Shown here: positions 40,622-58,231 of the stretch, one piece after another
Position numbering within the stretch: the first letter of the stretch is position 1
Layout: every line of letters begins with the position of its first letter
Translations under genes and position numbers: made by a program
Assembly (NCBI RefSeq): GCF_023150065.1
Contig: NZ_JAKLLN010000007.1
Location: forward strand, 143,410-207,409
DNA length: 64,000 nt
Direction of reading: 5' to 3'
From: Zoogloea sp.
Lineage (GTDB): Bacteria; Pseudomonadota; Gammaproteobacteria; Burkholderiales; Rhodocyclaceae
Notes under the pieces: generated by a model
What the model saw: the letters and a program-made list of their open reading frames with translations, nothing else
Databases searched by the model: none
Told to the model about the DNA's origin: nothing

Positions 40622-41059
40622 CTACTTGTACTCGCTGGGCTTGCTGAGCACGGCGGCGGTCATGCGCGAGATGCACACCAGCTTGCCTTCCTCGTTGGTG
40701 ATGCGCACTTCCCACACGTGGGTGGTGCGCCCCAGATGCAGGGGGCGGGCTTCGCCGTAGACCCAGCCGCTGGTCACGGCGCGGACATGGTTGGCGTTGA
40801 TCTCCTGGCCGACGCAGTGGTACTTGGCCGGGTCGACCACGTGGGCGGCCGACCAGGACGCCAGGGTCTCGGCGAAGGCCACCGACACGCCACCATGCAG
40901 TGCCCCGGCGGGCTGGCGGGTGCGCGGGTCCACGGGCATGCGGCCGCGCAGGAAATCCTCGCCGATCTCGATCAGCTCCATGCCAAGGTGGCCGTTGGCG
41001 CAGGTGGCGCCCCGGGCATTGACTTCTTCCAGGGTGAAGGGGGCAAACCAGATACTCAT
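40622..41059 (-). CDS. Hotdog-fold acyl-CoA thioesterase (MenI/YdiI-like)
   Basis: The 145-aa protein has the hotdog signature LHGGVSVAFAETLAS with the catalytic glutamate, and INANHVRAVTSGWVYGEARPLHLGRTTHVWEV, typical of the aryl-CoA thioesterases YdiI/MenI/EntH. It would hydrolyse an aromatic or hydroxyaryl CoA ester. It is the last gene of the aromatic cluster, 43 bases after a second thioesterase. Confidence 0.85.
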   Translation of the reverse strand: MSIWFAPFTLEEVNARGATCANGHLGMELIEIGEDFLRGRMPVDPRTRQPAGALHGGVSVAFAETLASWSAAHVVDPAKYHCVGQEINANHVRAVTSGWVYGEARPLHLGRTTHVWEVRITNEEGKLVCISRMTAAVLSKPSEYK

Positions 41060-41102
41060 TGGGGCTACTCCGTATTGTTGTCGCCGACGCCTGGGGCGCC
41101 GG

Positions 41103-41522
41103 TCAAAGGATCATCTGGGTGCAACGGTACAGCACCAGCTGGCGGCCGGTGGCCTCGTCGGTGACCACCGCGTCCCACACCTGGGTCGTCCGCCCCAGGT
41201 GGGCCGCGGTGGCAACGCAGGCAATGGCGCCCTCGGTGAGGGTTCCCAGGTGGTTGCTCTTCAGTTCGATGGTGGCAAAGGAGCGGGCGCCGGCCGGCAG
41301 GTGCGCCATGGTCGCATGGCCGGTGGTGGTGTCGGCCAGGGCGATCAGGCTGGCCGCGTGCAGGCGCTGGTTGGGAGCCATGTGCATGGGGCGCAGGGGC
41401 ATGCGGCTGCTCGCCCGCCCCTGCTCCAGGCTCAAAAACTCCACCCCCAGCACGCCCGGCAGGCAGTCCGCCGCGTCCCGGTTGAGGCTGTCCACGCTGA
41501 GATCGGTGCGCAGGATGCTCAT
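41103..41522 (-). CDS. Hotdog-fold thioesterase (PaaI-like)
   Basis: The 139-aa protein has LHAASLIALADTTTG, where aspartate replaces the catalytic glutamate as in PaaI-type thioesterases, and the LKSNHLGTLTEG core. It is distinct in sequence from its neighbour. It starts one base after livF, so it is co-transcribed with the importer genes. Together with the CoA ligase it implies CoA-ester intermediates or a rescue of trapped CoA. Confidence 0.82.
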   Translation of the reverse strand: MSILRTDLSVDSLNRDAADCLPGVLGVEFLSLEQGRASSRMPLRPMHMAPNQRLHAASLIALADTTTGHATMAHLPAGARSFATIELKSNHLGTLTEGAIACVATAAHLGRTTQVWDAVVTDEATGRQLVLYRCTQMIL

Positions 41523-41523
41523 C

Positions 41524-42273
41524 TCAGTGCTTCGCCCCCAGGTAGGCCTCGATCACCCGGGGGTTCTGGGCCAGCTCGCTGGCCTTGCCCTCCAGGGTCA
41601 CATCGCCCACCTCCAGCACATAGCCGTAGTCCGACACCTTGAGCGCCGCACGGGAGTTCTGCTCGATCAGCAGGGTCGCCACGCCGGTATCGCGCAGGTG
41701 GGAGATCACCTGGAAGACCTCGGCCATCACCCGCGGCGCGAGCCCCAGGGAGGGCTCGTCGAGCATCAGCACCTTGGGGTCGCTCATCAGCGCCCGGCCG
41801 ATGGCCACCATCTGCCGCTCCCCGCCCGACATGGTGCCCGCCAGCTGGTTGCGGCGCTCCTTGAGGCGCGGAAAGACGGCATAGATGCCCTCCAGCCCGT
41901 CCCGATACGACCAGCCCGCCTTGCGGCGGCGGTAGGCGCCGAGCACCAGGTTGTCCTCCACGGTCATGGTGGTGAACAGCTCGCGCTTCTCGGGCACCAG
42001 GGCCAGGCCCTTGCCCAGGCGCAGCTCGATGGCGTGGTGGGACACCTCCTGCCCCATGTACAGCACCTCGCCCTCGGCCTGCCCTTCGCTGGGCAGCGCC
42101 CCCATGATGGCGTTGAGCAGGGACGACTTGCCCGCCCCGTTGGGGCCGATGACGGTGACGATCTCGCCGGCCCGCAGGCTGATCGAGGTGCCCCGCAGGG
42201 CCTCGACCTTGCCGTAGCGCACGCTCAGGTTGCGGGTCTCGAGGACGGGTTTGCTGTTGTTGTCGGCGCTCAT
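41524..42273 (-). CDS. livF: ABC transporter ATP-binding protein LivF
   Basis: The 249-aa ATPase has Walker [10 protein letters not shown], signature LSGGE-like MSGGERQMVAIGRALM and Walker B VLMLDEPSLGL. Length and C-terminus (VIEAYLGAKH) are those of LivF. Its start overlaps the LivM-LivG stop by four bases. In this context it would power uptake of an aromatic substrate rather than branched-chain amino acids. Confidence 0.93.
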   Translation of the reverse strand: MSADNNSKPVLETRNLSVRYGKVEALRGTSISLRAGEIVTVIGPNGAGKSSLLNAIMGALPSEGQAEGEVLYMGQEVSHHAIELRLGKGLALVPEKRELFTTMTVEDNLVLGAYRRRKAGWSYRDGLEGIYAVFPRLKERRNQLAGTMSGGERQMVAIGRALMSDPKVLMLDEPSLGLAPRVMAEVFQVISHLRDTGVATLLIEQNSRAALKVSDYGYVLEVGDVTLEGKASELAQNPRVIEAYLGAKH

Positions 42274-44063
42274 TCCACACCTCCCAGGTAGGCCGCCAGC
42301 ACGGCTTCATTGTTCTGGATCTCGGCGGGCAGGCCTTCGGCGATCTTGCTGCCGAACTCCATCACCACCAGCCGATCGGTCAGGCCCATCACGAAGTCCA
42401 TGTCGTGCTCCACCAGCAGCACCGACATGCCCTCGCCCTTGAGCTGGCGGATCAGGTCGGCCAGGGCCTCCTTCTCCTTCAGGCGCAGGCCGGCGGCGGG
42501 CTCGTCGAGGAGCAGCAGCGTCGGATCGGTGCACAGGGCCCGGGCGATCTCGAGGATGCGCTGCTGGCCCAATGCCAGGCTGCCCGCCGGGGTGTGCATG
42601 TACTCCCCCAGGCCCACCCGGCGGATCTGCTCGGCGGCAAGAAAGAGCAGCCGGGCTTCCTCGTGGCGGTCCAGGCGCAGGGCCGCCGCCAGGGGGCTGC
42701 TTCGACCGCGCAGGTGCGCCCCCATGGCCACGTTTTCCAGCACCGACAGCTGGGGGATGAGATGCACATGCTGGAAGCTGCGGCCGATGCCCATGCGCAC
42801 AATGTGCCGGGAATCCAGCTGGTCGATGCGCTCGCCGCAGAAGCGGATCTCGCCGCTGGTGGCGGGCAGCACCCCGGTCACCAGGTTGAACATGGTGGAT
42901 TTGCCCGCCCCGTTGGGGCCGATCAGGCCCACCACCTCGCCGGCGCGGATCTCGAAGGCCATGTCCTTCACCGCCACCAGGCCACCAAACTGCTTTCGGG
43001 CGTCGCTCACCTCGAGGATCAGCGCCCCGGCCTGGGGCCGGGCCCGGCGCGGCAGGTCGCTATAGCCATCGGGGGCGATGGCCGGCGCCACCACCTCCGG
43101 CTCGGGCGGATGGAACTTCGCCCACACGCTGGCCACCCAGGGCCACAGGCCGTCCCGCGACCACAGCAGGAGCAGCACGATCATCACCCCGAAGACCACG
43201 ATCTCGAAGTTGCCGTTGCTGCCGAGCAGGAGCGGCAGCAGATCCTGCAGCTGGCTCTTCAGGCCGGTCATCACCACCGCGCCGAGGATCGCTCCCCACA
43301 CGTGGCCGACGCCCCCCACCACCGCCATGAACAGGTACTCGATGCCCATGTGCAGGCCAAAGGGCGTGGCGCTCACCGAGCGCTGCAGGTGGGCATACAG
43401 CCAGCCCGACAGGCTCGCCATCAGCGCCGCCAGCACGAAGATCAGGATCTTGTACTGGGCGGTGTGGATGCCCATCGCCTCGGGCATGGTCTTGCCCTTG
43501 GCCAGGGCCCGGATGGCGCGGCCGGGGCGGGAGTTGAGCAGGTTGAGCACCAGCATCAGGCAGCCACCCAGGCACAACCAGATCACCCCGTACATCACCC
43601 GCGGTGACGACAGGTCGATACCGAACACGCTCAGGGCCGGGATACCCGACAGGCCGTCGTACTTGCCCAGGAACTCGATGGTGCCAAACAGGTAGTACAG
43701 GGACAGCCCCCAGGCGATGGTGGCCAGGGGCAGGAAGTGGCCCGACAGGCGCACCGTGACGCTACCGATCAGCGCCGCCGCCAGGCCCGAAACCACCAGC
43801 CCGGCCCCCAGTCCCACCCACGGCGACCAGCCCAGGGTGGTGCTGAGGTAGGCCGTGGTGTAGGCCCCCAGACCCACGAAGGCCGCCTGCCCGAAGGAGG
43901 TCAGGCCGCCAATGCCGGTGAGCAGCACCAGGCCGAGGGCGACGATGGAATACAGGCCGATGTAGTTGCCGATGGTGATCCAGTAGCCCGGCACGGGCAG
44001 AAACGGAAACACGAAAAACCAGCCGAACATCAGCCACTGGAGCTTCTTGGTGGACATCTTCAT
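42270..44063 (-). CDS. Fused ABC transporter permease/ATPase (LivM-LivG)
   Basis: The 597-aa protein joins a LivM permease (residues ~1-325, about eight membrane helices, [18 protein letters not shown]) to a LivG ATPase (~345-597) with Walker [10 protein letters not shown], a [15 protein letters not shown] signature and [10 protein letters not shown]. The signature LALGQQ departs from LSGGQ in the usual LivG manner. Start ATG 44063 overlaps livH by four bases. Such fusions occur in betaproteobacterial aromatic-uptake loci. Confidence 0.92.
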
Positions 44064-45109
44064 TCTTCGTCTCCATGGCCCGAAGTCAGCGAACGCCAGG
44101 CCAGCACCGGGATGATCAGGGTGAACACGATCACCTCCTTGTACGCACTGGCCCAGTAGGAGGAATAGCTCTCGAGCAGGCCGACCAGCAGGGCCCCGGC
44201 CGCCGCCAGCGGGTAGCTGGCCAGGCCGCCGACGATGGCCGCCACGAAGCCCTTCAGGGCCACCACGAAGCCGGTGTCGTAGCCCACGGTATTGAGGGGC
44301 GCGATGAGGGTGCCGGCCAGGGTGCCCAGGCCCGCAGCCAGGCCAAAGGCCATGCGCCCGGCCTGGCTGGTGCCGATGCCCACCAGCTGCGCGCCCTTGC
44401 GGTTCACCGCCGTGGCGCGCAGGGCCTTGCCGTACAGCGTGCGGTCGAAGAACAGGTAAAGCAGGCCGATCAGGCTGCCCGCCACCGCCATCACCACCAC
44501 GCTCTGCCCGGACACCGGCATCTCGCCCAGGGCCGTGCTCCAGTCGGTGAAGGGATGGGTGGTCGAGCCCTCCGGCCCGAAGATGAACAGCCCCATGCCC
44601 AGCAGGGCGAAATGCACCCCCACCGAGACGATCAGCAGCACCAGCACCGAGGCCTCGGCCATGGGCTGGAAGGCGACGCGGTAGATCATGATGCCCAGGG
44701 GCACGGTGATGGCGAGGGTGAACAGGATCTGCACCGCCATCGGCATGCCCTGCCAATCAAAGGTGTGGGCCAGCAGCCAGATGAACGAGGGGTAGATCAG
44801 GTTCTCGATGACGCTCCACATCAGCAGGCGCCGCGGCAGCGGCTTGTAGCGCCGCTGGCGCAGGGCCGAGCCCAGCTCCACCAGGAAAGTGAGCACACCG
44901 ATGCCGATGAGCAGCCAGATCAGCCGGGGAAACTGGCTGCTCTGCAGGGCCGCCACGGTGAGGGCACCGAAACCGATGAACTCCCCCTGGGGCAGAAAGA
45001 TGATGCGCGTCACTGAAAACACCAGCACCAGGGCCATGGCCAACAGCGCGTAGACCGCGCCGTTGGTCACCCCGTCCTGGGCCAGGACCGCGAAGATTCC
45101 GAAATCCAT
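44060..45109 (-). CDS. livH: ABC transporter permease LivH
   Basis: The 349-aa protein is hydrophobic, with the LivH N-terminus ([37 protein letters not shown]) and the EAA-like [21 protein letters not shown] segment. It is longer than E. coli LivH (308 aa) because of an insertion after the third helix. It begins 21 bases after the oxygenase reductase gene, within the same operon. Confidence 0.92.
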
Positions 45110-45130
45110 GAAAGTCTCCTCAGGCCCGGT

Positions 45131-46132
45131 TCAGTTATTGACGACGAAAGCGTCGGCCAGGAAGCGCGCCGCTGGCAGCCCCGCCGTGGCGGTGAAGCTG
45201 CTGCGCGCCGCGTCGATCATCAGCGGGTTGCCACAGGCATAGACCTCGTGGGCTGAAAGATCGGGCAGATCCTCCAGCACCGCCGCATGCACAAAGCCGC
45301 GCCGGCCGGTCCACTCCGCGCCGGCCTCGGACAGCACCGGCACCAGGCGGATGCCCGGGTGCTGCGCCTCCCAGGCGGCCACGCTGTCCACCGCGTACAG
45401 GTCGGCCCACTGGCGCCCGCCCCAGTACAGCACCGCCCCGCGGCGCGCCATCTCGGCGCCGTGGGTCTTGAGCAGCGCGGCGATGGGGGCGTAGCCCGTG
45501 CCCGAGGCCAGCAGCACGATGGGCACGTCGCCCGGCTGCAGCACAAAGTCGCCATACGGCCCTTCGATGCGCAGCAGGCCGCCGGCCTTGAGCTTGTCGT
45601 AGGCGTGGGTGGAGAAGCGCCCGCCCTCCATGCGGCGCACGTGCCACTCGATGACACCCGCCTCCGCCGGATCGTTGGCCATGCTGTAGCTGCGCTTCGC
45701 CCCGTCCTTGAGGATCACGCTGGCGTACTGGCCAGCCTTGAAAGTAAAGCCGGCGGCGGGCGGCACCTGCAGGCGGATCACCACCACGTCGTGGGACGGG
45801 CGGCTCACCTCCACCACCTTGGCGCCGGTTGTCACCACCCGCTGCCCCGGCTCGGCCGGCACCTTGGGCGCGTCAAGCAACAGGTTGCTGGTGGGCACGG
45901 CCTGGCAGGTGCGGCACTGGCCGGCAGGCACGTCGGTGCCATCCGGGCGGGTCGGGGCGTGGTCCACCGCCCCTTCCAGCAGGCCCAGGTGGCAGCTGTT
46001 GCAGGTGCCCGTGCGGCAGCTGTGGGGCAGCCAGTAGCCGGCGGCCAGGGCGGCGTCGAGCACCGTCTGGCCGGGGGCGCATTCAAAGCTGCCGCCGTTC
46101 GGCGACAGCCTGACGAGAAGGTTCGCAGTCAT
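45131..46132 (-). CDS. Oxygenase reductase: [2Fe-2S] ferredoxin + FAD/NAD(P)H
   Basis: The 333-aa protein has an N-terminal plant-type ferredoxin domain (CRTGTCNSC and a distant GQCRTCQA), then an FAD-binding barrel (KRSYSMAND) and a nucleotide domain (LLASGTGYAPIAALL). This is the architecture of class III (naphthalene dioxygenase-type) reductases. It should pass electrons from NAD(P)H to the Rieske ferredoxin at 55892-56236, although it is encoded about 10 kb away in the cluster. It lies 5 bases after mhpE. Confidence 0.9.
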   Translation of the reverse strand: MTANLLVRLSPNGGSFECAPGQTVLDAALAAGYWLPHSCRTGTCNSCHLGLLEGAVDHAPTRPDGTDVPAGQCRTCQAVPTSNLLLDAPKVPAEPGQRVVTTGAKVVEVSRPSHDVVVIRLQVPPAAGFTFKAGQYASVILKDGAKRSYSMANDPAEAGVIEWHVRRMEGGRFSTHAYDKLKAGGLLRIEGPYGDFVLQPGDVPIVLLASGTGYAPIAALLKTHGAEMARRGAVLYWGGRQWADLYAVDSVAAWEAQHPGIRLVPVLSEAGAEWTGRRGFVHAAVLEDLPDLSAHEVYACGNPLMIDAARSSFTATAGLPAARFLADAFVVNN

Positions 46133-46137
46133 GACGC

Positions 46138-47199
46138 TCAGCCCGCTTCGCTCATGGTCGGGATGGCATGCACGGCGTCGTGCTCATGGCCCTTCAGCAG
46201 GTCAAGGGCCACGTCCACGATCATGTCCTCCTGCCCGCCCACCATGCGGCGGCGGCCCAGCTCGACGAGGATGTCCACCGCCTTGAGGCCGTACTTCTTG
46301 GCCGCCACTTCGGAGTGGCGCAGGAAGCTGGAATACACACCGGCGTAGCCCAGGGCCAGGGTCTCCCGGTCCACCCGCACCGGGCGGTCCTGGAGGGGGC
46401 GCACGATGTCGTCGGCGGCATCCATCAGGGTGTACAGGTTGCAGCCGTGGTTCCAGCCCATGCGGTCGGCGGCGGCGATGAAGACTTCCAGCGGGGCATT
46501 GCCGGCCCCGGCGCCCATGCCGGACAGGCTGGCGTCCACCCGGTCACAGCCCTCCTCCACCGCGACGATGGAGTTGGCGACGCCCAGGCTCAGGTTGTGG
46601 TGGGCGTGGATGCCCGTCTCGGTCTCGGGCTTGAGCACGTCCTTGAAGGCGCGGAAGCGCTCGCGCACGTCGTTCATCGACAGGGCACCGCCCGAATCCA
46701 CCACGTAGCAGCAGGTGGCGCCGTAGCTCTCCATCAGCTTGGCCTGCTGGGCCAGGGCCTGGGGCGTGGTCATGTGGCTCATCATCAGAAAGCCCACCAC
46801 TTCCATGCCCAGCTCCCGGGCCACCTCGATGTGCTGGCGCGACACGTCGGCCTCGGTGCAGTGGGTGGCCACGCGCACGATGCGGGCGCCGGCGCTGTAG
46901 GCGGCCTTCAGGTCATGCACGGTGCCGATGCCGGGCAGCAGCAGGGTCGCCACCTTGGCGTGCTTCACCGTGTCGGCCACGGCCTCGATCCACTCCAGGT
47001 CGGTGTGGGCGCCAAAACCGTAGTTGAAGCTGGAGCCCTGCAGGCCGTCGCCGTGGGCCACCTCGATGGAATCCACCTTGGCCTTGTCCAGGGCGCGGGC
47101 GATCTGCACGGCCTGCTCCACGCTGTACTGGTGGCGGATGGCGTGGGAGCCGTCGCGCAGGGTCACGTCGGAGATGTAGATCTTCTTGTCGGGGTTCAT
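46138..47199 (-). CDS. mhpE: 4-hydroxy-2-oxovalerate aldolase
   Basis: It cleaves 4-hydroxy-2-oxovalerate to pyruvate and acetaldehyde and channels acetaldehyde to MhpF. The 353-aa protein has the barrel motif [13 protein letters not shown] with metal ligands, [13 protein letters not shown], and the C-terminal dimerisation domain ([15 protein letters not shown]). It starts 11 bases after mhpF. It is the final step of the meta-cleavage pathway. Confidence 0.96.
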
Positions 47200-47210: not shown

Positions 47211-48167
47211 TCAGGCAGCGGTGACGGCGGTGGCCAGGATGCGGGCGGCCATGCGTTCGGCGGTGGTCTTGGCGGCGGAGGTCATGATGTCCAGGTTGCC
47301 GGCATAGGCCGGCAGGTAGTGGGCAGCGCCTTCCACTTCGAGGAACACGGAGGTCTTGAGGCCGCTCATGCGCGGGCCGACGCCGGGGATGTTGATGGGG
47401 CGCGAGGCCGGGATGACATCGAACTGCACCTTCTGCTTGAGGCGGTAGCCGGCCACGTACTTCTGCACATCGGCAGCCATGCGCTCCACCGAGGCGGCGA
47501 TCTCGTCCTCGTCGGCCATTTCCGACAGGCAGTACACCGTGTCGCGCATCATCAACGGCGGCTCGGCCGGGTTGAGGATGATGATGGCCTTGCCCTTGGC
47601 CGCCCCACCCACCACCTCGATGGCCTTGGACGTGGTCTCGGTGAACTCGTCGATATTGGCGCGGGTGCCGGGCCCGGCCGACTTGCTGGAGATGGAGGCG
47701 ATGATCTCGCCGTAATGCACCTTGGCCACGCGGCTCACCGCCGCCACCATGGGGATGGTGGCCTGGCCGCCGCAGGTGACCATGTTCACGTTGAGGGCGT
47801 CGTCATGCAGGGCGCCGTTGACCACCGGGATGCAGTAGGGGCCGATGGCGGCCGGGGTCAGGTCCACCATGCGGATGCCGGGCTTGAGGCTGCGCAGGAA
47901 GGCGTCGTTCTTCACGTGGGCACCGGCGCTGGTGGCGTCGAAGACGATGTCGATGTCGGCAAACACCGGCAGGCGGGTCAGCCCTTCCACCCCTTCGTGG
48001 GTGGTGGCGACGCCCATCCGGGCCGCGCGGGCCAGGCCATCCGAGCCCGGGTCGATGCCCACCATGGCACCCATTTCCAGGTGCTCGCCGTGGCGCAGGA
48101 TCTTGATCATCAGGTCGGTGCCGATGTTGCCGGAGCCGACGATGGCCACCTTCAGTTTCTTGTTCAT
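47211..48167 (-). CDS. mhpF: Acetaldehyde dehydrogenase (acylating)
   Basis: It oxidises acetaldehyde to acetyl-CoA with NAD+ and CoA, in complex with the aldolase. The 318-aa protein has the Rossmann loop [10 protein letters not shown] and the catalytic cysteine in [12 protein letters not shown]. The mhpF-mhpE order and spacing are standard. Confidence 0.97.
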
Positions 48168-50054: not shown

Positions 50055-51200
50055 TTACTTCAACAGCTTCCAGTTGTTCTGCTCGATGGTGATCAGCACG
50101 CGGGCGCCCTCGCCCAGGCCGGAGTGGTCGGTGGCCGACATGCTGTTGATACCATGGGTCAGGGGCAGGTTGCTGGTCTTCTCGAGGGCGTCGCGCAGGG
50201 CGGCACGGAATTCCGGGGTGCCCGGCGCGGCCTTCTTGCCGACGCTGGCCACGGCCTTGTCGAGGAGCAGGTAGGCGTCCTGGGCGTAGGCGCCGAAGGG
50301 GTTGCGGGAGCCGGCACCGTGCTTGCCTTCGTAGGCCTTCAGGTAAGCCAGGGCGACCTTCTTGCTGGGGTTGCTGTCGGGCAGCTGCTCGGCCACCAGG
50401 ACCAGGCCGGTGGGCAGGATCAGGCCTTCATCGGTGTTGCCGGCGACCCGCAGGAAGTCGTTGTTGGCGGCGCCGTGAGTCTGGTAGAACTGGCCCTTGA
50501 AGCCCCGCTCGCGCAGGGCGCGCATGGGCAGCGCGGCCGGGGTGCCGCTGGCGGCGATGAAGATGGCGTCGGGCTTCTGGCCCACCAGCTTGAGGGCCTG
50601 GGCGGTCACCGACTGATCGGTGCGGGCGTAGCGCTCGACGGCCACCAGCTTGATGCCGCTGGCTTCGGCGCGCTTCTCCACGTCCTTCAGCCAGGCTTCG
50701 CCGTAGGCGTCGCTGAAGCCGATGAAGGCGATGGTCTTGGTGTCGCGCTTCTTCATCTCTTCAAACAGCGCGGCAGACATCACGCCCACGCCGTGGGGCA
50801 GCGGAAACACCCACTGGATCTGCTTGGGCGGGAACGGGGCCAGGGCGATCTGCGGGATCTTCGCCTCGCCGGCCACCTCGGCCACGGCCAGGGAGGTGGG
50901 CACGGTGGTGGAACCGATGATGGCGTCCACCTTGTCGGCGTCGGCAAAGCGGCGGGCGTTCTTGCCGGCGGCGGTGGGGTCGGAGGCGTCGTCGAGGACG
51001 ACGTAGTTCACCGGCAGGCCGCCCAGGGTCTTGGGCAGCAGCTCGATGGTGTTCTTCTGGGCGATGCCCAGGGAGGCGGCCGGGCCGGTGGAGCTGACGC
51101 TCACGCCGATGGTGACGGTCTGGGCCTGGGCGTGGCTGGCGCCACCGAAGGCAAGCATCAGGGCAGCGGACAGGCTGGCAAGAAAATGGCGGCGGTTCAT
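50055..51200 (-). CDS. ABC transporter substrate-binding protein (LivK/J family)
   Basis: The 381-aa periplasmic receptor has a signal peptide with a twin-arginine-like start (NRRHFLASLSAALML) cleaved after ASHAQAQ. The mature part starts TVTIGVSVSSTGPAASLG, followed by VVLDDASDPTAAGKNARRFADADKVDAIIGSTT. Members of this branch bind aromatic acids as well as amino acids. It completes the importer with LivH, LivM-LivG and LivF but is encoded apart from them, after the hydratase. Confidence 0.92.
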   Translation of the reverse strand: MNRRHFLASLSAALMLAFGGASHAQAQTVTIGVSVSSTGPAASLGIAQKNTIELLPKTLGGLPVNYVVLDDASDPTAAGKNARRFADADKVDAIIGSTTVPTSLAVAEVAGEAKIPQIALAPFPPKQIQWVFPLPHGVGVMSAALFEEMKKRDTKTIAFIGFSDAYGEAWLKDVEKRAEASGIKLVAVERYARTDQSVTAQALKLVGQKPDAIFIAASGTPAALPMRALRERGFKGQFYQTHGAANNDFLRVAGNTDEGLILPTGLVLVAEQLPDSNPSKKVALAYLKAYEGKHGAGSRNPFGAYAQDAYLLLDKAVASVGKKAAPGTPEFRAALRDALEKTSNLPLTHGINSMSATDHSGLGEGARVLITIEQNNWKLLK

Positions 51201-51269: not shown

Positions 51270-52052
51270 TCAGGCGGTACGGCAGCTGACGCTGCCCAGA
51301 CCGGCAATGGACAGGTGCAGGTGGTCGCCGGCGACGAAGGGGAACATCGGCCCCAGGGCGCCGGAGAGGATCACGTCACCGGCCCTGAGGGGGTCGCCCA
51401 GCTGCTGCATGGTGCGGGCCAGCCAGTAGGCGGCGAGCAGCGGGTTGCCCAGGCAGGCGACGCCGCTGCCCACCGACACGGTGTGGCCGTTCTTGCGGAA
51501 GTCCATGCCGGCCAGGGCGAAATCCACGCTGCCGATGGCGCGGGGCTCGAGGCCCAGCACGTAAAGCCCGCAGGACGCGTTGTCGGCCACCGTATCCACC
51601 AGGGTCAGCTTCCAGTCCTGGATGGCGCTGTCGACGATCTCGATGGCCGGCAGGGCGTATTCGAGGCCATGCAGGAAGCGCCCCCAGCTGAGGCTCTCAC
51701 CGTCCAGGTCGCGGCCTACCACGAAGGCGATCTCGCCCTCGGCCTTGGGCTGGATCAGGCGGCTGGCCGGCACTTCGCTGCCCGACAGGAACTCCATGTC
51801 GGCAAACAGCACGCCGTAGTCGGGTTGGTCCACGCCCAGCTGCTGCTGCACGGCCTGGGAGGTGAGGCCGATCTTCTTGCCCACCACGCGGCGGCCTTCG
51901 GCGATGTCGCGCAGGCTGTTGCAGCGGGCGACGGCATAGGCTTCGTCGGCACCGTGGATGCCGAACTGCTCGGAGATGCGAGGAATGGCGGTGCGCGTGG
52001 CGCGGGCCTGCCGCAGGGCCGCGGCGGCGGCCTGGATCTTGTCCTGATTCAT
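51270..52052 (-). CDS. mhpD: 2-oxopent-4-enoate (2-hydroxypentadienoate) hydratase
   Basis: The 260-aa protein belongs to the fumarylacetoacetate-hydrolase-like hydratases: GKKIGLTSQAVQQQLGVDQPDYG, QPKAEGEIAFVVGRDL with metal ligands, and EIVDSAIQDWKLTLVDTVADNASCGLYVLG. It adds water to 2-hydroxypenta-2,4-dienoate, giving the MhpE substrate. The gene symbol is by function; sequence alone does not separate MhpD, BphH and XylJ orthologues. Confidence 0.92.
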   Translation of the reverse strand: MNQDKIQAAAAALRQARATRTAIPRISEQFGIHGADEAYAVARCNSLRDIAEGRRVVGKKIGLTSQAVQQQLGVDQPDYGVLFADMEFLSGSEVPASRLIQPKAEGEIAFVVGRDLDGESLSWGRFLHGLEYALPAIEIVDSAIQDWKLTLVDTVADNASCGLYVLGLEPRAIGSVDFALAGMDFRKNGHTVSVGSGVACLGNPLLAAYWLARTMQQLGDPLRAGDVILSGALGPMFPFVAGDHLHLSIAGLGSVSCRTA

Positions 52053-52079: not shown

Positions 52080-53084
52080 TTACAGGGCCGGGTAGCGCTG
52101 GCGCAGCCGGGTCAGGCCGGCCAGCTCGTCGTCGAGGCAGGCGGCGTATTCCCGGTACAGCTGGCGGACGATGGCGTCGGTGCTGGCAACGGCCTCGATG
52201 CCACCTACGCCGTGGCCGGCGGACCACACGCTCTTCCAGGCCTTGGGGGCGTCGACGATGTCGCCGGAGAAGTCGATCTTCTTCTCCTCGCGCAGCTGCT
52301 CGGGGGTGAAGCCGGCCTTGTCGAGGGTGGGCTTGAGCCAGTTGGCCAGCACGCCGGACACCGCCTTGGTGGCCACCAGGTCTTCCAGGCCGCTGCTGAC
52401 GATGAGATCCCGGTAGGCGGGCTCGGCCAGGCTCTCGGGGGTGGCGATGAAGCGCGTGCCGGCGAGCACGAAGTCGGCGCCCAGCAGCTGGGCGGCGCGG
52501 ATGTCGGTGCCGGTGGTGATGGCGCCGGCCAGGCCGAGGGGGCCGGACCAGAACTTGCGCACCTCGGCAATCAGCGCGAAGGGGTGGTAGTGGCCGGTGT
52601 GGCCCCCTGCCCCCTGGGTCACCAGCACCAGCACGTCGGCGCCGGCGTCGGCGGCCTTGCGGGCCAGGGCCGGATTGATCACGTCGGCCATCACGATGCC
52701 GCCGTAGCCATGCACGGTGTCGAGCACCCGGCGCGGGCTGCCCAGGGCGGTGGACACGATCTTCGGCTGGAACTCCTGCACCAGGGCCAGCTCCGCGTCG
52801 AAGCGGTCGTAGCTGCTGTGCACGATCATGTTGAGGGACCACGGGGCGCCGGGGCGGTCGGCCTGGATGGCGTCGCGGGTGTGGGCCATCCATTCCCGCA
52901 GGGTGTCCACGTTGCGGGCGTTGGCCGCGGGGTAGGAGCCGATGATGCCGGCCCGGGCACAAGCAATCACCAGCTCGGGCCCCGAGACCAGAAACATCGG
53001 TGCGGCCATCAGCGGCAGGGTGCTGCGCTGGATGATGTCGACAAAATCCTGCTGCGGCGCAGTCAGGCTACGCGTGAAGCTCAT
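52080..53084 (-). CDS. Nitronate monooxygenase family FMN enzyme
   Basis: The 334-aa protein is a 2-nitropropane-dioxygenase-like TIM barrel: LPLMAAPMFLVSGPELVIACARAGIIGSYPAANAR, VTQGAGGHTGHYHPFALI with the family's histidine, and AGAITTGTDIRAAQLLGADFVLAGTRF for FMN phosphate. Such enzymes oxidise nitronates, but many recruited to catabolic clusters have no known substrate. Its place between the dihydrodiol dehydrogenase and the hydratase is odd for a plain meta-cleavage pathway. Confidence 0.85.
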   Translation of the reverse strand: MSFTRSLTAPQQDFVDIIQRSTLPLMAAPMFLVSGPELVIACARAGIIGSYPAANARNVDTLREWMAHTRDAIQADRPGAPWSLNMIVHSSYDRFDAELALVQEFQPKIVSTALGSPRRVLDTVHGYGGIVMADVINPALARKAADAGADVLVLVTQGAGGHTGHYHPFALIAEVRKFWSGPLGLAGAITTGTDIRAAQLLGADFVLAGTRFIATPESLAEPAYRDLIVSSGLEDLVATKAVSGVLANWLKPTLDKAGFTPEQLREEKKIDFSGDIVDAPKAWKSVWSAGHGVGGIEAVASTDAIVRQLYREYAACLDDELAGLTRLRQRYPAL

Positions 53085-53150
53085 CTCTTCCTCCGTTGGG
53101 TGCTCTTTGCTGCGTCGTTTCTTATGTTTTTTGGCGCGGGCGGGGCGGGT

Positions 53151-53951
53151 TCATCGCATCGGGCGTATCTCCCATCCGCCGTCGCTCTGGATCACCGTGG
53201 CGGTGGTGGCCCGGCTGTTGTCCCGGGAGGCCAGCAGCACGTAATGGCCGGCGTGGTCTTCGGGCTGGGCGATCATCTTCAGGGGCATCGAGTTGGCGAC
53301 GTTCTCCTGGAAGTTGGGGATCTCCGACAGGCGGCGCTCGCCCTTGCCCAGGCTTTCGGGGCCACGCAGGGGTGTGACCGTGCCGCCGGGCGCCACGCCG
53401 TTCACCCGCACGTCGGGGGCGAACTCGTAGGCCAGCTGCTTGATCAGCCCCAGGCCGGCGTGCTTCGAAGCCACGTACAGGGGGCCACCGCCGCCGGCGT
53501 AGAAGGCCGAGTTGGACAGGGTGAAGATCATGCTGCCCCTGCTCTCGCGCAGAGCCTCGGCGGCGGCGCGGGCGGCCAGCACGTAGCCCTTCACGTTGAC
53601 CCCGAAGATCTCGTCGAAGCTCTTGTCCAGCTCGTCGAGGCTCATCTTCTCGAGCCGGGTGAAGAAGTCCCACACACCGGCGTTGCCCACCAGGGTGTCG
53701 AGCTTGCCGAAGCGCCGCAGCGTGGCGTCCACCGCCTTCTGGTTGTCGGCGCCGGAGCGCACGTCACCGAGGCTGGTGACCACCTGGTCGCCAAACTCGG
53801 CGACCAGGCTGTCGGCCTGCTCCTGGCTGCGCACCATCACGCCCACCCCCGTGCATCCTTCAGCGATGTAGCGCTTGACGACGGCGCGGCCGATCCCCGA
53901 TCCGCCTCCCGTCACCAGCGCCACGTAGCCATTGAGCCAGCCCATGGTCAT
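53151..53951 (-). CDS. cis-dihydrodiol dehydrogenase (SDR family, BphB/HcaB-like)
   Basis: The 266-aa short-chain dehydrogenase has GGGSGIGRAVVKRY for NAD+, NAGVWDF, catalytic Ser in TLSNSAFYAGGGG, and YVASK. The segment VRVNGVAPGGTVTPLRGPESLG is typical of aromatic cis-dihydrodiol dehydrogenases. It would rearomatise the dioxygenase product to a catechol. It starts at 53951, 3 bases after the beta-subunit stop (an in-frame ATG two codons later is possible). Confidence 0.9.
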   Translation of the reverse strand: MTMGWLNGYVALVTGGGSGIGRAVVKRYIAEGCTGVGVMVRSQEQADSLVAEFGDQVVTSLGDVRSGADNQKAVDATLRRFGKLDTLVGNAGVWDFFTRLEKMSLDELDKSFDEIFGVNVKGYVLAARAAAEALRESRGSMIFTLSNSAFYAGGGGPLYVASKHAGLGLIKQLAYEFAPDVRVNGVAPGGTVTPLRGPESLGKGERRLSEIPNFQENVANSMPLKMIAQPEDHAGHYVLLASRDNSRATTATVIQSDGGWEIRPMR

Positions 53952-53954
53952 GCC

Positions 53955-54491
53955 TCAGAGGAAGGTGTTGAGGTTTTTGGCCATCAGCACCGACTGGGTG
54001 ATGATGATCTTGCGCCGGGCCAGCCTGAAGCTGTCGTCATCGGCACGCAGCACGTCCTCGCGGCGCCCCACCAGCAGGTCGTTGTCCTTCTCGACCCGGC
54101 TGCGGTAGTTGACGAAGGTGCTGTGCACGATGAACTCGCCGGGGGCCTCGCCCTGGTACACCTCGATGCCCGCCACCACGTGGGCATGCCGGGTGGCCGG
54201 GTCTTCGGCCCAGGCGGTGGGCTGCTTGAAGCGGGTGACGCGACGGGTCAGGTCCACCAGGTTGTCGTTGTAGAGGGCGCCCCGGTCCACCGCGTAGCTG
54301 CCGTTCTTGTCGGCGCGGCGGCGGTTTTCCATGGTCGGCATCCAGTAGTGGATGTCCTCGGCCATCAGGGCCAGCCAGTCGTCCCAGCGCTCGTTGTCGA
54401 GCAGGCGGGCCTCCCGGTACAGAAACTGTTCGACCCGGCGCTGGGTTTCGGCGTCCACGCCGATCTCGGGCAAGGCGGTCTTGGCGTTCAT
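53955..54491 (-). CDS. Ring-hydroxylating dioxygenase beta subunit
   Basis: The 178-aa protein is the structural small subunit of an alpha3beta3 Rieske oxygenase. It has the SnoaL-like fold pattern (VEQFLYREARLLDNERWDDWLALMAEDIHYWMP) and ends ARRKIIITQSVLMAKNLNTFL, the usual C-terminus. The start overlaps the alpha-subunit stop by four bases. Confidence 0.94.
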   Translation of the reverse strand: MNAKTALPEIGVDAETQRRVEQFLYREARLLDNERWDDWLALMAEDIHYWMPTMENRRRADKNGSYAVDRGALYNDNLVDLTRRVTRFKQPTAWAEDPATRHAHVVAGIEVYQGEAPGEFIVHSTFVNYRSRVEKDNDLLVGRREDVLRADDDSFRLARRKIIITQSVLMAKNLNTFL

Positions 54492-55861
54492 ACACCCTCC
54501 TTCATCTTCGGCACGTCGCGTTGGGGAACGTTTTTCCAGCTCTCGGACTTCATCAGATCGAGCCAGCGCTGGTAGAAGGCGCGCTGGTTGGCCTCGTTGA
54601 TCTGGCCCTGGAAGACGTTGCCGGGCAGGTCGGTGCCCTCGACGCGGGTGTCGTGGCCCAGGCCCAGATACAGGTCCTGCTGGCGGGTGACGAAGCCGGC
54701 GTTACTGCGGGTGGAGTATTCCCAGTTCTCGCCGTCGTCCATCTCGAAGACGCCGGAGGGGCTGAAGGTCATCATGGTGCCCTTGCGCCACTTGTCCTTG
54801 ATCTCCTGGGGGGCCTTCTTGTTGACGAAGGTCCAGGTGTGCAGCTCGATCTGGCCCGGGCCGCGGGGGTGCCAGGTGCGGAAGGTGTTCTGCCCCGGCA
54901 GGAAGGAGGTGTTGGGGAACAGGGTGCAGGATGAGATGGCGCCGATCATCTTCGAGCGCAGCTCACCCAGGCGCTCGGCCACCTTGGGCTGTAGCACGTA
55001 CAGGTACTTGAGCAGTTCCTTCTCGCCCAGGGTGGCGCAGTTGCCGACGATGTCCTGGTTGAACTCCCAGCCGTGGCCGTTGAAGTTGACGTGGTAGGAC
55101 TGCTCGGGGGTCTTGTGCACCTCGGCCACCGGGCCGCCGACCATGGCCTTGGCGCCGGAGTCGTGGGTCCAGCCGGCGTGCAGGATGTCGCCGACGAAGT
55201 TCTCGGAGGCGTACTTCCAGTTGCACTGGATCACCGACTTGACGCAGCCGCCGATAAACTCGGTGCCGCCCTCGTCCATGTCGAAGATGGCGTCCAGGTA
55301 GTAGCGCATGTCGCCCAGGTACTCGGCGAGGCTCGGCGCCTCGGGGTCGAGGGTGGCGAAGATCAGGCCGCGGTAGCTGTCCACATGGGCCACCGGGTGC
55401 AGGCCGTGCTCGGTCTTGTCCATGCCGGCGGCCTCGTAGGTCTCGGAGGCGTGCATGCCCTTCAGGCCGCCGTCGATGCCGAAGGCCCAGCCGTGGTAGT
55501 TGCACACGAACTGGCGGGCGTTGCCCAGGTCGGCGAAGCACACCTTGTTGCCCCGGTGCGGGCAGGTGTTGAGGAAGCCCTTCACGCTGCCATCCTTCTG
55601 GCGGACGATCAGCACGTTGTCCTCGCCCATGTAGGTGGTGACGTAGTCGCCCGCCTTGGGGATCTGGGATTCGTGGGCCACGAACAGCCAGCAGCGGGCA
55701 AAGATGCGCTCCAGCTCCTGCTCGTAGATGTCCTGGTCCCAGAACAGGTCGCGGGACATGCGGCCCTTCTCCAGGTTCATCAGCTGATCCAGGTTCTCGA
55801 TGGACTGGGCGATGGGCCGGCGCTTGAGGCGGATCGGCGTGGCGCCTTGGGTTGTGCACAT
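54488..55861 (-). CDS. Ring-hydroxylating dioxygenase alpha subunit
   Basis: The 457-aa catalytic subunit has a Rieske centre with ligands C100, H102, C120 and H123 (TCPHRGN ... CNYHGW). The mononuclear iron site has H228 and H233 in ENFVGDILHAGWTH, with D225 as the bridging acid to the neighbouring Rieske centre. Together with the separate ferredoxin and [2Fe-2S]/FAD reductase this is a three-component dioxygenase. The presence of a beta subunit rules out CarAa-type homotrimers. The ring substrate is unknown. Confidence 0.95.
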   Translation of the reverse strand: MCTTQGATPIRLKRRPIAQSIENLDQLMNLEKGRMSRDLFWDQDIYEQELERIFARCWLFVAHESQIPKAGDYVTTYMGEDNVLIVRQKDGSVKGFLNTCPHRGNKVCFADLGNARQFVCNYHGWAFGIDGGLKGMHASETYEAAGMDKTEHGLHPVAHVDSYRGLIFATLDPEAPSLAEYLGDMRYYLDAIFDMDEGGTEFIGGCVKSVIQCNWKYASENFVGDILHAGWTHDSGAKAMVGGPVAEVHKTPEQSYHVNFNGHGWEFNQDIVGNCATLGEKELLKYLYVLQPKVAERLGELRSKMIGAISSCTLFPNTSFLPGQNTFRTWHPRGPGQIELHTWTFVNKKAPQEIKDKWRKGTMMTFSPSGVFEMDDGENWEYSTRSNAGFVTRQQDLYLGLGHDTRVEGTDLPGNVFQGQINEANQRAFYQRWLDLMKSESWKNVPQRDVPKMKEGV

Positions 55862-55891
55862 GGTCGTGTGTCTCCTCGCTATGTGTTGTTG

Positions 55892-56236
55892 TCAGACGGC
55901 GTCGGCCGCTTCGTCGGATTCCTGGTCCAGATCCACCAGCAGCTCATCACCTTCATCAATCACCTTGAAGGTGCGGATGGGGTGCTCGCAGGGAAAGCTC
56001 ATGGGCTGGCCGGTGGGGATGTGGAAAGTGCCGTCATGCACCGGGCAGGCGATGCAGTCGTCGTCCACGATGTCGCCTTCGGAGAGCGACGCGGTGGCGT
56101 GGGTGCAGCCGTCCTGGGTGGCGTAGAAGGTGCCGTTGAGGTTATAGACGGCGAGCATCTGGCCGCCGACCTCGCACTTGCGCACCTTGCCGGGTTCGAG
56201 ATCGCCGCGCTTGAGCAGCAGAATCGGTTGGGACAT
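55892..56236 (-). CDS. Rieske-type ferredoxin of the dioxygenase
   Basis: The 114-aa protein carries a Rieske motif, CTHATASLSEG and CPVHDGTFHIPTG, with the C-x-H...C-x2-H pattern. It shuttles electrons from the reductase to the alpha subunit. The C-terminus is unusually acidic (EGDELLVDLDQESDEAAD). It lies between the extradiol dioxygenase and the alpha subunit. Confidence 0.94.
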   Translation of the reverse strand: MSQPILLLKRGDLEPGKVRKCEVGGQMLAVYNLNGTFYATQDGCTHATASLSEGDIVDDDCIACPVHDGTFHIPTGQPMSFPCEHPIRTFKVIDEGDELLVDLDQESDEAADAV

Positions 56237-56245
56237 GGGTGTTCC

Positions 56246-57082
56246 TCAGGCAAACAGTTGCACGAAGCCCAGGCCGGTGACCCATTCACGGACCGGGGCG
56301 TAATCGATGATTTCTCCCCGGGCGCCGGGCATGGCGCCCATGGCCACCGCCCACTGGCGGATCTCCATGCCGCCGTTGCCGCCGTGCTCGAGGATGTAGT
56401 CGTCGGACAGGCCGCCAATCGCCGCCAGGTTGCCGGTGCAGGCGTAGTCCATGATTTCCCGGTCGAAGGCCTCATTGACCTTGCCCATCTCGGGGGTGCC
56501 GACCCAGTGGCTGATGCCGCCGCTGCCGATCACCACCACACGTTCGTCGTCGGGCATGGCCTCGACCGCCGCCTTGATGGCGCCGCCCAGCTCGATGGCC
56601 CGCTTCATCCGGATGAAGGGATCGACGCCGGCCGCGATATACACCGGCACGGTGCCGATGGACTGGCCCCGGGCCCGCACCGGGTCGATGATCAGGCGGT
56701 CGGGGATGGCCACGGCATGGTCCACCGTGAAGGCCCGCGCCACCGCCCAGTCGAAGCCGTTGGCGTGGCCGTGCTCGGCGATGAAGCCGGCCAGCTTTTC
56801 GCTGGCGGGGATGATCTGCCGCTTGAGGCCCGGCAGCACATCCAGCGGGCCGTCCACGTCACCGGTGCCGATGAGGTACTGGGGCAGGCAACCGGTGCCG
56901 AAGTTGAAGTAGTGATCGGCGCCGATGATCACCGCGCTGGTGGCGTCGAGCGCAGCCAGCCGGTCGGCACAGGTGTCGTAGGCACCCCACATGCGCTTGC
57001 GGATGTCTTCCGCCGGCGCCTCGGGGGCGACGAACATCACCGGGTCATGCGGCACCAGAAAGCCGCCAACGATTTTTCCCAC
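56246..57082 (-). CDS. Class III extradiol dioxygenase, catalytic subunit (LigB/CarBb-like)
   Basis: The 278-aa protein opens a catechol-type ring with O2 at a non-heme Fe(II). Likely ligands are H12 (LVPHDP) and H57 (GADHYFNF), with a C-terminal glutamate. The second-sphere region FTVDHAVAIPDRL and GSGGISHWVGTPEMG match the LigB family. Start is GTG at 57082, preceded by AGGAGT; the longer open frame covers the LigA-like gene and is not coding. It pairs with the small subunit 17 bases upstream. Confidence 0.9.
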   Translation of the reverse strand: MGKIVGGFLVPHDPVMFVAPEAPAEDIRKRMWGAYDTCADRLAALDATSAVIIGADHYFNFGTGCLPQYLIGTGDVDGPLDVLPGLKRQIIPASEKLAGFIAEHGHANGFDWAVARAFTVDHAVAIPDRLIIDPVRARGQSIGTVPVYIAAGVDPFIRMKRAIELGGAIKAAVEAMPDDERVVVIGSGGISHWVGTPEMGKVNEAFDREIMDYACTGNLAAIGGLSDDYILEHGGNGGMEIRQWAVAMGAMPGARGEIIDYAPVREWVTGLGFVQLFA

Positions 57083-57099
57083 GGGAAACTCCTGAGTTC

Positions 57100-57396
57100 T
57101 TATTGCTTGAGGCCGGCCGAAAACACCTGGCCTTCGGCGACGGCACCACGCAAGGCCTTCATGTAGGCGGCGGGGTGGCGGTTGGGGGCGTTCTCTGTCC
57201 AGAAGCCGAGGGTCAGCATCGGGTTGACGCCGTGCTTCTGCATGCCGGCCACGTCGAAGCCGGTGACCATGGCGCGCTCCTCGTCGCTGAGGGCGTAGCG
57301 GGCCAGCAGGCCTTCCGGGTCTTCCTTGAAGCGCTGCTTCACGGCCCGGTCGACGCACAGCTGGTGCATCAGTTTTTCCAGCACATTGCGGCTCAT
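57100..57396 (-). CDS. Extradiol dioxygenase small subunit (LigA/CarBa-like)
   Basis: The 98-aa protein has the LigA-superfamily pattern: LCVDRAVKQRFKEDPEGLLARYALSDEERAMVTGFDVAGMQKHGVNPMLTLGFW. In LigAB and CarBaBb this alpha-helical subunit caps the active site of the catalytic subunit. It lies 13 bases after the hydrolase. It is missed if only long reading frames are considered, because a longer frame starts upstream within the hydrolase gene. Confidence 0.88.
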   Translation of the reverse strand: MSRNVLEKLMHQLCVDRAVKQRFKEDPEGLLARYALSDEERAMVTGFDVAGMQKHGVNPMLTLGFWTENAPNRHPAAYMKALRGAVAEGQVFSAGLKQ

Positions 57397-57409
57397 CGCG
57401 GCCTCCGGA

Positions 57410-58231
57410 TCAGGCGCAGAAGTCGCGCACGAGCTGCAGGAAGCGGGTGCGGTGCTCGGTCTGCACCCAGTGGCCACACTGGCCGAAGAGGTGCAGCTCG
57501 GCCTTGGGAATCGCCCGGGCCAGCAGGAAGCCGCACTCCGGCGGCACCACGCCGTCTTCACGGCCGTGCAGCACCAGGGTGGGCGCTTCGATCTTGGCCA
57601 CCGAGGCTTCGGGGAAGCCCTTGACCAGGGTCGGACCTTCGGCGTTGGGCTTGGGGATCAGCTTGCGCAGGGCATCCTGGGCACCGGGGCGGGCGCTGGC
57701 CTCGAAGCGGGTGCGGATCATCTCCTCGGTGATGATGTCCTGGTTGAACGGGAACAGACGCATGGTCTTTTCCATGTTCTCCATGGACGGCTCGTACTCC
57801 CAGGCCGAGCGCAGGCCCGGGGTCTGCACGAACTCGCCGGCCGGCGTGCCCAGCAGCACCAGCTTGTCCACCCGCTGGGGGGCAAACAGGGCCAGCCCGA
57901 TGGAGAGCGCACCGCCAAAGGAGTTGCCGACGAAGGAAGCCTTCTCGATGCCCAGCTCATCCATGATCCCGGTGAGGTGGCGCACCCACAGCTTGATGTC
58001 GTACTTGCTGTCGGACTTGAACTCAGTGAAACCAAAACCGGCGATATCCGGGGCGATGACCCGGAAGTGCGGCGCCAGGTCGGGCATGACCTTGCCCCAG
58101 TTGGTCCAGGCCGAAACGCCGGGGCCGGAACCGTGCAGCAGGAACAGGGGCTTGCCACTGCCCTCCTCCAGGTAGTTGGTCTGATGCTCTGCGGCAAGAA
58201 GGGTCTTGCCAATGCCGGGGTGCTTGTCCAT
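57410..58231 (-). CDS. Meta-cleavage product (C-C bond) hydrolase, MhpC/BphD/CarC-like
   Basis: The 273-aa alpha/beta hydrolase has the oxyanion loop LLHGSGPGVSAWTNW, nucleophile in VGNSFGGALS, aspartate in HGREDGVVP, and histidine in GQCGHWVQTEHR, all hallmarks of meta-cleavage product hydrolases. It splits the ring-opened diketo acid to 2-hydroxypentadienoate plus a carboxylic acid. It is the first gene of the cluster. ATG at 58231 follows GGAGA, and an operator lies 17 bases upstream. Confidence 0.93.
   Translation of the reverse strand: MDKHPGIGKTLLAAEHQTNYLEEGSGKPLFLLHGSGPGVSAWTNWGKVMPDLAPHFRVIAPDIAGFGFTEFKSDSKYDIKLWVRHLTGIMDELGIEKASFVGNSFGGALSIGLALFAPQRVDKLVLLGTPAGEFVQTPGLRSAWEYEPSMENMEKTMRLFPFNQDIITEEMIRTRFEASARPGAQDALRKLIPKPNAEGPTLVKGFPEASVAKIEAPTLVLHGREDGVVPPECGFLLARAIPKAELHLFGQCGHWVQTEHRTRFLQLVRDFCA

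Follow-up and report, generated by a model that had tools for sequence, protein, structure and literature searches.

A widespread gene module of Zoogloea sp. and other bacteria that combines a Rieske dioxygenase with a LigAB-type ring-cleavage enzyme

The gene cluster on the minus strand at positions 40622-58231 of a 64,000-nucleotide stretch of the genome of Zoogloea sp. (the whole stretch is hereafter the window) is a real, complete and widespread catabolic module. In the order of transcription it encodes a C-C hydrolase, LigA, LigB, a Rieske ferredoxin, the dioxygenase alpha and beta subunits, an HcaB-like short-chain dehydrogenase/reductase (SDR), an enzyme of the nitronate monooxygenase (NMO) family, a hydratase, the solute-binding protein (SBP) of a Liv importer, a coenzyme A (CoA) ligase, an acetaldehyde dehydrogenase, an aldolase, a BenC-type reductase, LivH, LivM-LivG, LivF and two thioesterases (Table 1). 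All genes named for this region in an original prediction, which was made from the letters of the DNA alone, are present and contiguous on the one strand, with support from Pfam and NCBIfam models. Its reading of a three-component oxygenase stands, the alpha and beta subunits, ferredoxin and BenC-type reductase all being encoded, as does its statement that the oxygenase is not of the CarA type, the alpha and beta subunits being those of the biphenyl group. The Liv importer (SBP, LivH, fused LivM-LivG and LivF) is also present, and the route to pyruvate and acetyl-CoA is complete as proposed, with hydrolase, hydratase, aldolase and acetaldehyde dehydrogenase.

Composition and spread of the module

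The ring cleaver had been predicted to be a LigA and LigB pair, in agreement with the adjacent open reading frames (ORFs) that match PF07746 and PF02900. LigB is best read from a GTG start and not as the whole 370-aa ORF of the ORF list, and its best solved relative is 1b4u_B. H11, H56, H121, H191 and E239 (numbered from one codon after the GTG) are kept in at least 97% of 66 LigB sequences of 231-329 aa, and we take these residues to match H12/H61/H195/E242 of LigB itself. LigA and LigB are thus predicted to form a class III two-subunit extradiol dioxygenase of the LigAB type that would cleave the ring of a catechol.

In a search for the same gene set elsewhere, LigA and LigB were found together in 73 of 79 loci, which were collected by an alpha-subunit search of genome contigs in which the best 80 of 276 alpha relatives were kept. 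Dozens of genomes show the same order of genes, indicating that the cluster is not a chance assembly. An alpha/beta dioxygenase paired with a class III cleaver of two subunits had been put forward as unusual; this pairing is common among these best relatives and has a precedent in fluorene clusters (Gordonia pGRS1). Synteny was counted by tblastn for the window genes and by cluster membership for ligases, TRAP importers, luciferase-like (LLM) enzymes and FAD-type reductases, in loci other than those of the host genome (L001-L003). The fetched loci carry 10-kb flanks, many of them cut by contig ends or by the flank limit, and the script-based selection of ORFs assigned some genes wrongly, so that beta or LigA, for instance, is missing in some rows. 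The 73 loci with LigA and LigB (LigAB loci) include alpha in 73, the hydrolase in 73, the SDR in 72, NMO in 63, the hydratase in 57, acetaldehyde dehydrogenase in 49, a TetR relative in 48 and the aldolase in 40. Among the 42 LigAB loci with full flanks, a CoA ligase is found in 41, an NMO or LLM enzyme in 40, and a Liv or TRAP importer, the hydratase and the aldolase in 30 each.

The CoA ligases belong to two distantly related clusters (49/73 and 21/73 LigAB loci), and the window ligase shares 23% identity with one ligase of the other cluster over part of its length. The importers are likewise of two systems, Liv (31/73) and TRAP (15/73), and the reductases comprise BenC-type and FAD-type proteins. 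This recurrence of ligase, importer and reductase by separate recruitment indicates that these parts are likely needed by the pathway.

The carriers include Zoogloea, Pseudomonas, Marinobacterium, Burkholderiaceae, Rhizobiaceae, Roseobacteraceae, Actinomadura and Nocardia, the closest alpha relatives being from Zoogloea (up to 97%). Zoogloea dura G-4-1-14 (L008), for instance, has an alpha at 95%. In 150 genomes of the host family a full-length alpha of more than 60% identity was found, among the matches listed, only in the host genome, and the distribution therefore appears patchy. One genome of the family (G024) has an alpha match of 85% over residues 219-457 with an internal stop. The six loci without the LigA and LigB pair are L015, at a contig edge, L014, and four on a branch with EtbA and polycyclic aromatic hydrocarbon (PAH) enzymes. 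In L014, from a metagenome-assembled genome, a gap of about 140 bases (9493-9633) separates the hydrolase gene from the ferredoxin gene, with no LigA or LigB between them, the result of either a deletion or an assembly fault. Pseudomonas linyingensis (L027, about 3255-11329) apparently has two tandem LigA-LigB-alpha-beta copies, the first without a preceding hydrolase gene. In five actinobacterial loci (L056, L058, L059, L062 and L069) no NMO was detected and a member of the LLM enzyme cluster is found instead, which may replace NMO functionally. A remnant of the module lies beside styrene genes on the P. putida S12 megaplasmid pTTS12 (L087, 11700-12846; W01:C1:359233-359916), where TetR, LigA, LigB and an alpha matching only residues 19-246 are followed by mer and Tn3-type genes. 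The pTTS12 'phenylpropionic acid' cluster, named in PMC9537497, was rejected as a characterised orthologue, the relative there being this remnant and the sole hydrolase match, at 414 kb, having 37% identity.

Where annotation was seen, the gene set is labelled piecemeal as hca, protocatechuate dioxygenase and nitronate monooxygenase. Treating the set as a single module, with a regulator and operator of its own, would put these labels right and provide a marker by which aromatic-acid use could be traced in bacteria from wastewater, marine and animal-associated settings.

The alpha subunit has the Rieske motif C-x-H...C-x2-H, a 2-His-1-Asp iron site, a bridging Asp and a beta-subunit partner, as is characteristic of the alpha3beta3 toluene/biphenyl group. 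Residues were counted in 75 alphas plus that of the window, and in 73 hydrolases, with loci of the etb/PAH branch (L070, L072, L077 and L079) left out. The iron-site residues H228, H233 and D376, and D225, are kept in 76/76. Gln324 is also found in all 76 LigAB-group alphas, in place of the Ile of BphA, EtbA and pNL1 and the Thr of HcaE, and so is Ser311, which is His in BphA and HcaE and Ser in EtbA and pNL1. In the BphA and naphthalene dioxygenase structures both positions line the pocket, and their invariance suggests that the LigAB-group alphas share one substrate class. Pocket charge was rejected as proof of a carboxylate substrate, there being no Arg at the aligned positions. In an AlphaFold model of alpha (mean pLDDT 80) the best solved match is HcaE (8k0a, 41% identity). 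The window proteins score under the cut-offs of the NCBIfam equivalogs HcaE (399/830 bits), HcaF (138/230) and HcaC (88.5/150); the SDR reaches the HcaB subfamily model and falls under the HcaB equivalog NF042950 (351/450).

In a phylogenetic analysis of the alphas of the 79 loci, the window and seven references, none of which was removed by the length filter, HcaE and BphA are distant from the window alpha. EtbA, pNL1 and four loci without LigB form a separate branch (100/100). This branch groups, with weak support (86/47), with the LigAB alphas of alphaproteobacteria and actinobacteria, and the tree therefore does not show the LigAB-linked alphas as a single clade.

The TetR regulator and its candidate operator

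Two operator-like palindromes of the form CATACA-N4-TGTATG are located upstream of the hydrolase gene and of a divergent TetR gene. The 330 bases that precede the hydrolase gene were scanned at 49 loci with the window-type TetR and in the window, and this palindrome occurs with at most two mismatches in 39/50 of these regions, as compared with a mean of 0.53 and a maximum of 3 in dimer-shuffled controls; the consensus was first read from a few of the counted loci, and close relatives, such as six Zoogloea loci, each add to the total, so that the counts are not fully independent. No operator-like site was found in 11 of the 50 upstream regions scanned. The whole window has three matches with at most two mismatches, against 0.64 expected, and 4/100 shuffles reach three. 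The host genome has four places that differ from the palindrome at no more than one position, two of which are the cluster palindromes (the reversed control has one place). Because matches in the host genome are few and two of the four are at the cluster, the TetR regulator looks dedicated to it. A sigma-70-like promoter match beside the palindromes is no better than chance.

In each of six examined Pseudomonas loci with an upstream divergent liv operon, two further sites (at most two mismatches) lie between TetR and this operon. One of the operator-like sites of L027 precedes livH, and L037 has four operator matches vs 0.18 expected. As such sites precede both the liv operon and the ring-cleavage genes, importer and ring cleavage seem to share one regulator. 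Newly described here are this putative operator, which would link import with ring cleavage, and the occurrence of Gln324 in all 76 alpha subunits.

Table 1. Features of the module and of the region upstream of it, in window coordinates
Feature	Position	Strand	Basis or remark
Hotdog thioesterase TE1 (MenI/EntH-like)	40622..41059	-	PF03061; best NCBIfam MenI/EntH models below cut-offs, TIGR00369 above
Hotdog thioesterase TE2	41103..41522	-	PF03061; TIGR00369 64.7 bits, cut-off 36.6
LivF-type ABC ATPase	41524..42273	-	PF00005
LivM-LivG fusion	42270..44063	-	PF02653+PF00005 in one frame; 597 aa from internal Met
LivH permease	44060..45109	-	PF02653
BenC-type ferredoxin reductase (2Fe-2S, FAD, NAD)	45131..46132	-	PF00111, PF00970, PF00175
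4-hydroxy-2-oxovalerate aldolase, MhpE type	46138..47199	-	TIGR03217 above cut-off; 84% to E. coli MhpE
Acylating acetaldehyde dehydrogenase, MhpF type	47211..48167	-	TIGR03215 above cut-off; 78% to E. coli MhpF
CoA ligase, PRK12582 acyl-CoA synthetase kind	48243..50042	-	PF00501; NF009232 668 bits, under cut-off 777
Aromatic-acid-type Liv SBP (LivK)	50055..51200	-	PF13458
2-hydroxypenta-2,4-dienoate hydratase, MhpD-like	51270..52052	-	PF01557; NF008461 298 bits, best but under cut-off 350; 48% to MhpD
NMO/FabK-family FMN enzyme	52080..53084	-	PF03060
cis-Dihydrodiol dehydrogenase, HcaB-like SDR	53151..53951	-	NF004849 394 bits, cut-off 330; 49% to HcaB
Rieske dioxygenase beta subunit	53955..54491	-	PF00866; NF007479 216 bits, cut-off 145
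Rieske dioxygenase alpha subunit	54488..55861	-	PF00355+PF00848
Rieske ferredoxin	55892..56236	-	PF00355
LigB catalytic subunit, GTG start	56246..57082	-	PF02900
LigA small subunit, separate 98-aa ORF	57100..57396	-	PF07746 37.2 bits, cut-off 25.3
Meta-cleavage C-C hydrolase, CumD/XylF-type	57410..58231	-	257 bits to 2-hydroxy-6-oxo-7-methylocta-2,4-dienoate hydrolase
Operator-like palindrome, 1 mismatch	58247..58262		Just upstream of hydrolase gene
Sigma-70-like promoter match, 9/12	58266..58293	-	1 found vs 1.5 expected
Operator-like palindrome, perfect	58417..58432		Sole perfect match in host genome
Divergent TetR-family regulator	58556..59167	+	PF00440; just beyond the cluster

Outside the module, the window encodes a 634-aa ORF at 36938-38842 that joins CbiZ (adenosylcobinamide amidohydrolase) to a carbon-nitrogen hydrolase domain, and a large predicted protein at 60547-63204 that contains NHL-type repeats together with PA and M28 peptidase domains.

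Substrate and proposed pathway

We propose, with a probability of about 0.5, that the module is a self-sufficient, TetR-controlled aerobic island, that its substrate is a monocyclic aromatic acid whose side chain is short, in all likelihood a C6-C3 acid (3-phenylpropionate/cinnamate-type), and that CoA activation is a regular step. An arylalkanoic or cinnamic-type acid had been suggested from the start, and this is still the best reading of the evidence, which is indirect; no orthologous cluster with a proven substrate was found in the literature, subscription papers being mostly outside the search. A C6-C3 acid is favoured by the kinship of the window SBP to an SBP inside the mhp cluster of the host genome (46.6% identity) and by the MhpE- and MhpF-type enzymes. 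This mhp cluster, mhpR-mhpA-mhpB-SBP-mhpD, lies at a contig end (L124, G000:C183, 3794-9357), and its SBP is of the same family as LivK. According to PMC3223731, the R. palustris SBP RPA1789, whose gene neighbours include a p-coumarate CoA ligase and an importer in which permease and ATPase are fused, binds p-coumarate, ferulate and cinnamate. For the TRAP binding protein, the names of related structures give no ligand. The window CoA ligase is 58% identical to a pBcn842-1 protein annotated as feruloyl-CoA synthase, and beside the orthologous cluster of pBcn842-1 lie beta-oxidation-type genes and, beyond a chemoreceptor gene, sucCD.

The hydrolase also hints at an acidic side chain on its substrate. 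Its triad S104/D226/H254 is intact in 73/73 hydrolases (241-339 aa), and its lid carries the basic residues R189 (69/73) and K or R204 (72/73), which are absent from the hydrolases XylF, NahN, EtbD and that of pIBU218; MhpC has K at 189. The lid charge (mean -1.8, SD (standard deviation) 1.6, n=73) is less negative than in most references (XylF -6, NahN -4, CarC -5, EtbD -4, FlnE -5, pIBU218 -3, MhpC -1). XylF and NahN are the names that we presume for hydrolases of the reference plasmids, where the records are generic.

In the proposed pathway the Liv importer would bring in the acid, the CoA ligase would attach CoA to it, and the NMO/FabK-type flavoenzyme would reduce or oxidise the C=C of the side chain while this is bound as a thioester. 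From the free acid or its CoA thioester the Rieske system would form a 2,3-cis-dihydrodiol, which the HcaB-like SDR would convert to a catechol for cleavage by LigAB adjacent to the side chain. The CumD/XylF-type hydrolase would give 2-hydroxypenta-2,4-dienoate and the side-chain acid (succinate or succinyl-CoA if C6-C3), and the MhpD/E/F-type enzymes would lead to pyruvate and acetyl-CoA.

The motif GAGGHTG (GGHxG) of the NMO is kept in at least 97% of 60 relatives (281-379 aa), and its best solved relatives are FMN (flavin mononucleotide) enoyl-ACP (acyl carrier protein) reductases. In Marinobacterium (L119, 2279-8119) an NMO paralogue (44-45%) stands between ORFs that, named from the look of the sequence and not by family search, are acyl-CoA-dehydrogenase-like, AMP-ligase-like and enoyl-CoA-hydratase-like. 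IpdC, a FabK relative, works with IpdF on a steroid-derived CoA thioester, according to PMC5380842. It was rejected as an orthologue of the NMO, which has 28% identity to a Nocardia protein taken for IpdC from its ipdAB-like neighbours, and is retained solely as a precedent for the action of its superfamily on CoA thioesters.

Several observations weigh against the C6-C3 acid reading. CumD, an alkyl-type enzyme, gives the best score for the hydrolase (257 bits), and the score with MhpC is poor (130); the lid residues were chosen after viewing the alignment; the less negative charge, compared with most references, extends over the whole hydrolase and is not confined to the lid; and the MhpC residue at 141 differs between alignments (L vs K). 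The margin of HcaE over biphenyl/toluene dioxygenases in the fold comparison is small, and by sequence HcaE ranks fourth. Among the named references alpha is closest to EtbA (55.5%) and not to HcaE (39.6%). The PDB names of the SBP relatives state no ligands, and NMO is absent from loci L012, L013 and L016. The host genome holds mhpA, mhpB and mhpD homologues (mhpB 52%), and free 2,3-dihydroxyphenylpropionate would therefore already have a cleaver there.

The coexistence of MhpB also allows the catechol made by the module to differ from free 2,3-dihydroxyphenylpropionate, for example by carrying CoA, and the regular presence of a CoA ligase hints at an unusual route. One such route would be an aerobic hybrid meta-cleavage, in which the Rieske, LigAB and C-C hydrolysis steps all act on the CoA thioester, the hydrolase releases succinyl-CoA or a related acyl-CoA, the side chain of the thioester is the target of the NMO/FabK-type enzyme, and hydroxyaryl-CoA that has stalled is rescued by the MenI/EntH-like thioesterases. 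We regard this as distinctly doubtful. The ligase in 41/42 full-flank loci is at most suggestive of ring oxygenation on a CoA thioester. No hybrid route among box, paa, salicyl-CoA and ibuprofen is known to use extradiol cleavage of a CoA-bound catechol. A thioesterase-free core was rejected as an argument for CoA-bound ring steps, the window thioesterases being more than 12 kb from alpha and thus outside the 10-kb flanks; a TE1 relative is near the cluster in L012, L013 and L015, and most other fetched loci end short of its position. With the module recognised as such, the question whether an extradiol enzyme can open the ring of a CoA thioester becomes accessible to a direct test.

Of the other explanations, a free-acid pathway like E. 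coli hca+mhp survives best, and we consider it unlikely on balance. Here the Rieske enzyme would act on free 3-phenylpropionate/cinnamate, in line with the HcaB-, HcaF- and MhpD/E/F-like enzymes and the HcaE fold match, and the ligase and NMO would serve side reactions, such as the activation of longer phenylalkanoates for beta-oxidation, to which the genes adjoining the pBcn842-1 cluster would correspond. However, that a ligase is almost always present, and of two distantly related kinds, points to a central role for CoA, and an MhpB homologue (at least 40% over most of its length) coexists in 9/25 genomes searched, host included.

That the same enzyme logic serves another aromatic acid (aryl-acetate, phenyl-lactate, hydroxycinnamate-derived or N-containing) appears improbable. 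The transporters and ligases are of broad families and the substrate evidence is indirect, which leaves room for such an acid, but the SBP kinship favours C6-C3 acids. Phenylacetate in particular is disfavoured as the main substrate by PaaA/C-type genes, over the family cut-off in 15/24 carrier genomes and the host, which thus have their own phenylacetate route; the other nine are without them, and phenylacetate is less disfavoured there. boxB was not found in the host genome, which is uninformative for the cluster (benzoate via box). Least probable of all is attack on a neutral alkylbenzene-like ring, with a short fatty acid freed by the hydrolase and activated by the ligase, as the CumD/XylF-type hydrolase, Gln324 without Arg at the aligned pocket positions, and the 55% identity of alpha to that of R. 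jostii RHA1 pRHL2 (presumably EtbA, with an ethylbenzene role) might suggest, since the six Pseudomonas loci have operator-like sites in common with Liv importers, 30/42 full-flank loci have Liv or TRAP importers, and EtbA-type alphas form their own branch of loci without LigB.

Comparison with known systems

Like the E. coli hca+mhp system, the module has an alpha/beta Rieske oxygenase with a separate ferredoxin, an HcaB-like SDR (49%), and MhpD- (48%), MhpE- (84%) and MhpF-type (78%) enzymes. It differs in having LigA and LigB in place of the single-chain MhpB (23% to LigB) and a CumD/XylF-type hydrolase in place of MhpC (34%), and in the addition of a BenC-type reductase, TetR, a CoA ligase, NMO and an ABC importer.

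The fluorene dbf/fln cluster of Gordonia pGRS1, in which we take two generically recorded genes to be DbfA1 and FlnE, shares alpha, beta, hydrolase, a class III extradiol enzyme, a small partner ORF and ferredoxin with the module. A table of PMC13117079 gives the extradiol protein of this cluster, WP_006897066.1, the name FlnD1. Identities to the window are low (alpha 36%, FlnD1 29%, FlnE 30%), and no CoA ligase, NMO or importer is among the 11 features of its incomplete gene table. The carbazole car genes of pCAR1 (names, including CarC, that we assume for generic records) encode a two-subunit meta-cleavage enzyme (LigB 32%), a hydrolase (33%) and a hydratase, whereas the oxygenase genes are single Rieske proteins, with no beta-subunit gene among the features shown.

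R. jostii RHA1 pRHL2, whose generically recorded genes are presumably EtbA and EtbD, has the closest alpha of the named references (55%) together with a hydrolase, hydratase, aldolase and LLM enzyme. It differs from the module in its single-chain BphC-type cleaver and in an alpha on a separate branch, and no ligase or importer is among the 17 features shown. pIBU218, for which we assume an ibuprofen role and the ipf names, combines an AMP-binding protein, an alpha/beta Rieske oxygenase, a BphC-type cleaver and a substrate-binding protein, and its hydrolase is 46% identical to that of the window. Its alpha, in contrast, is only 27% identical, its cleaver is single-chain, and it has lipid-transfer and OB-fold proteins that are absent from the window cluster; of the ipf partners, no thiolase or OB-fold gene was found among the window genes scanned. 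The module therefore joins the fluorene-type pairing of oxygenase and cleaver with the combination of CoA ligase and alpha/beta Rieske oxygenase seen in pIBU218, using different proteins.

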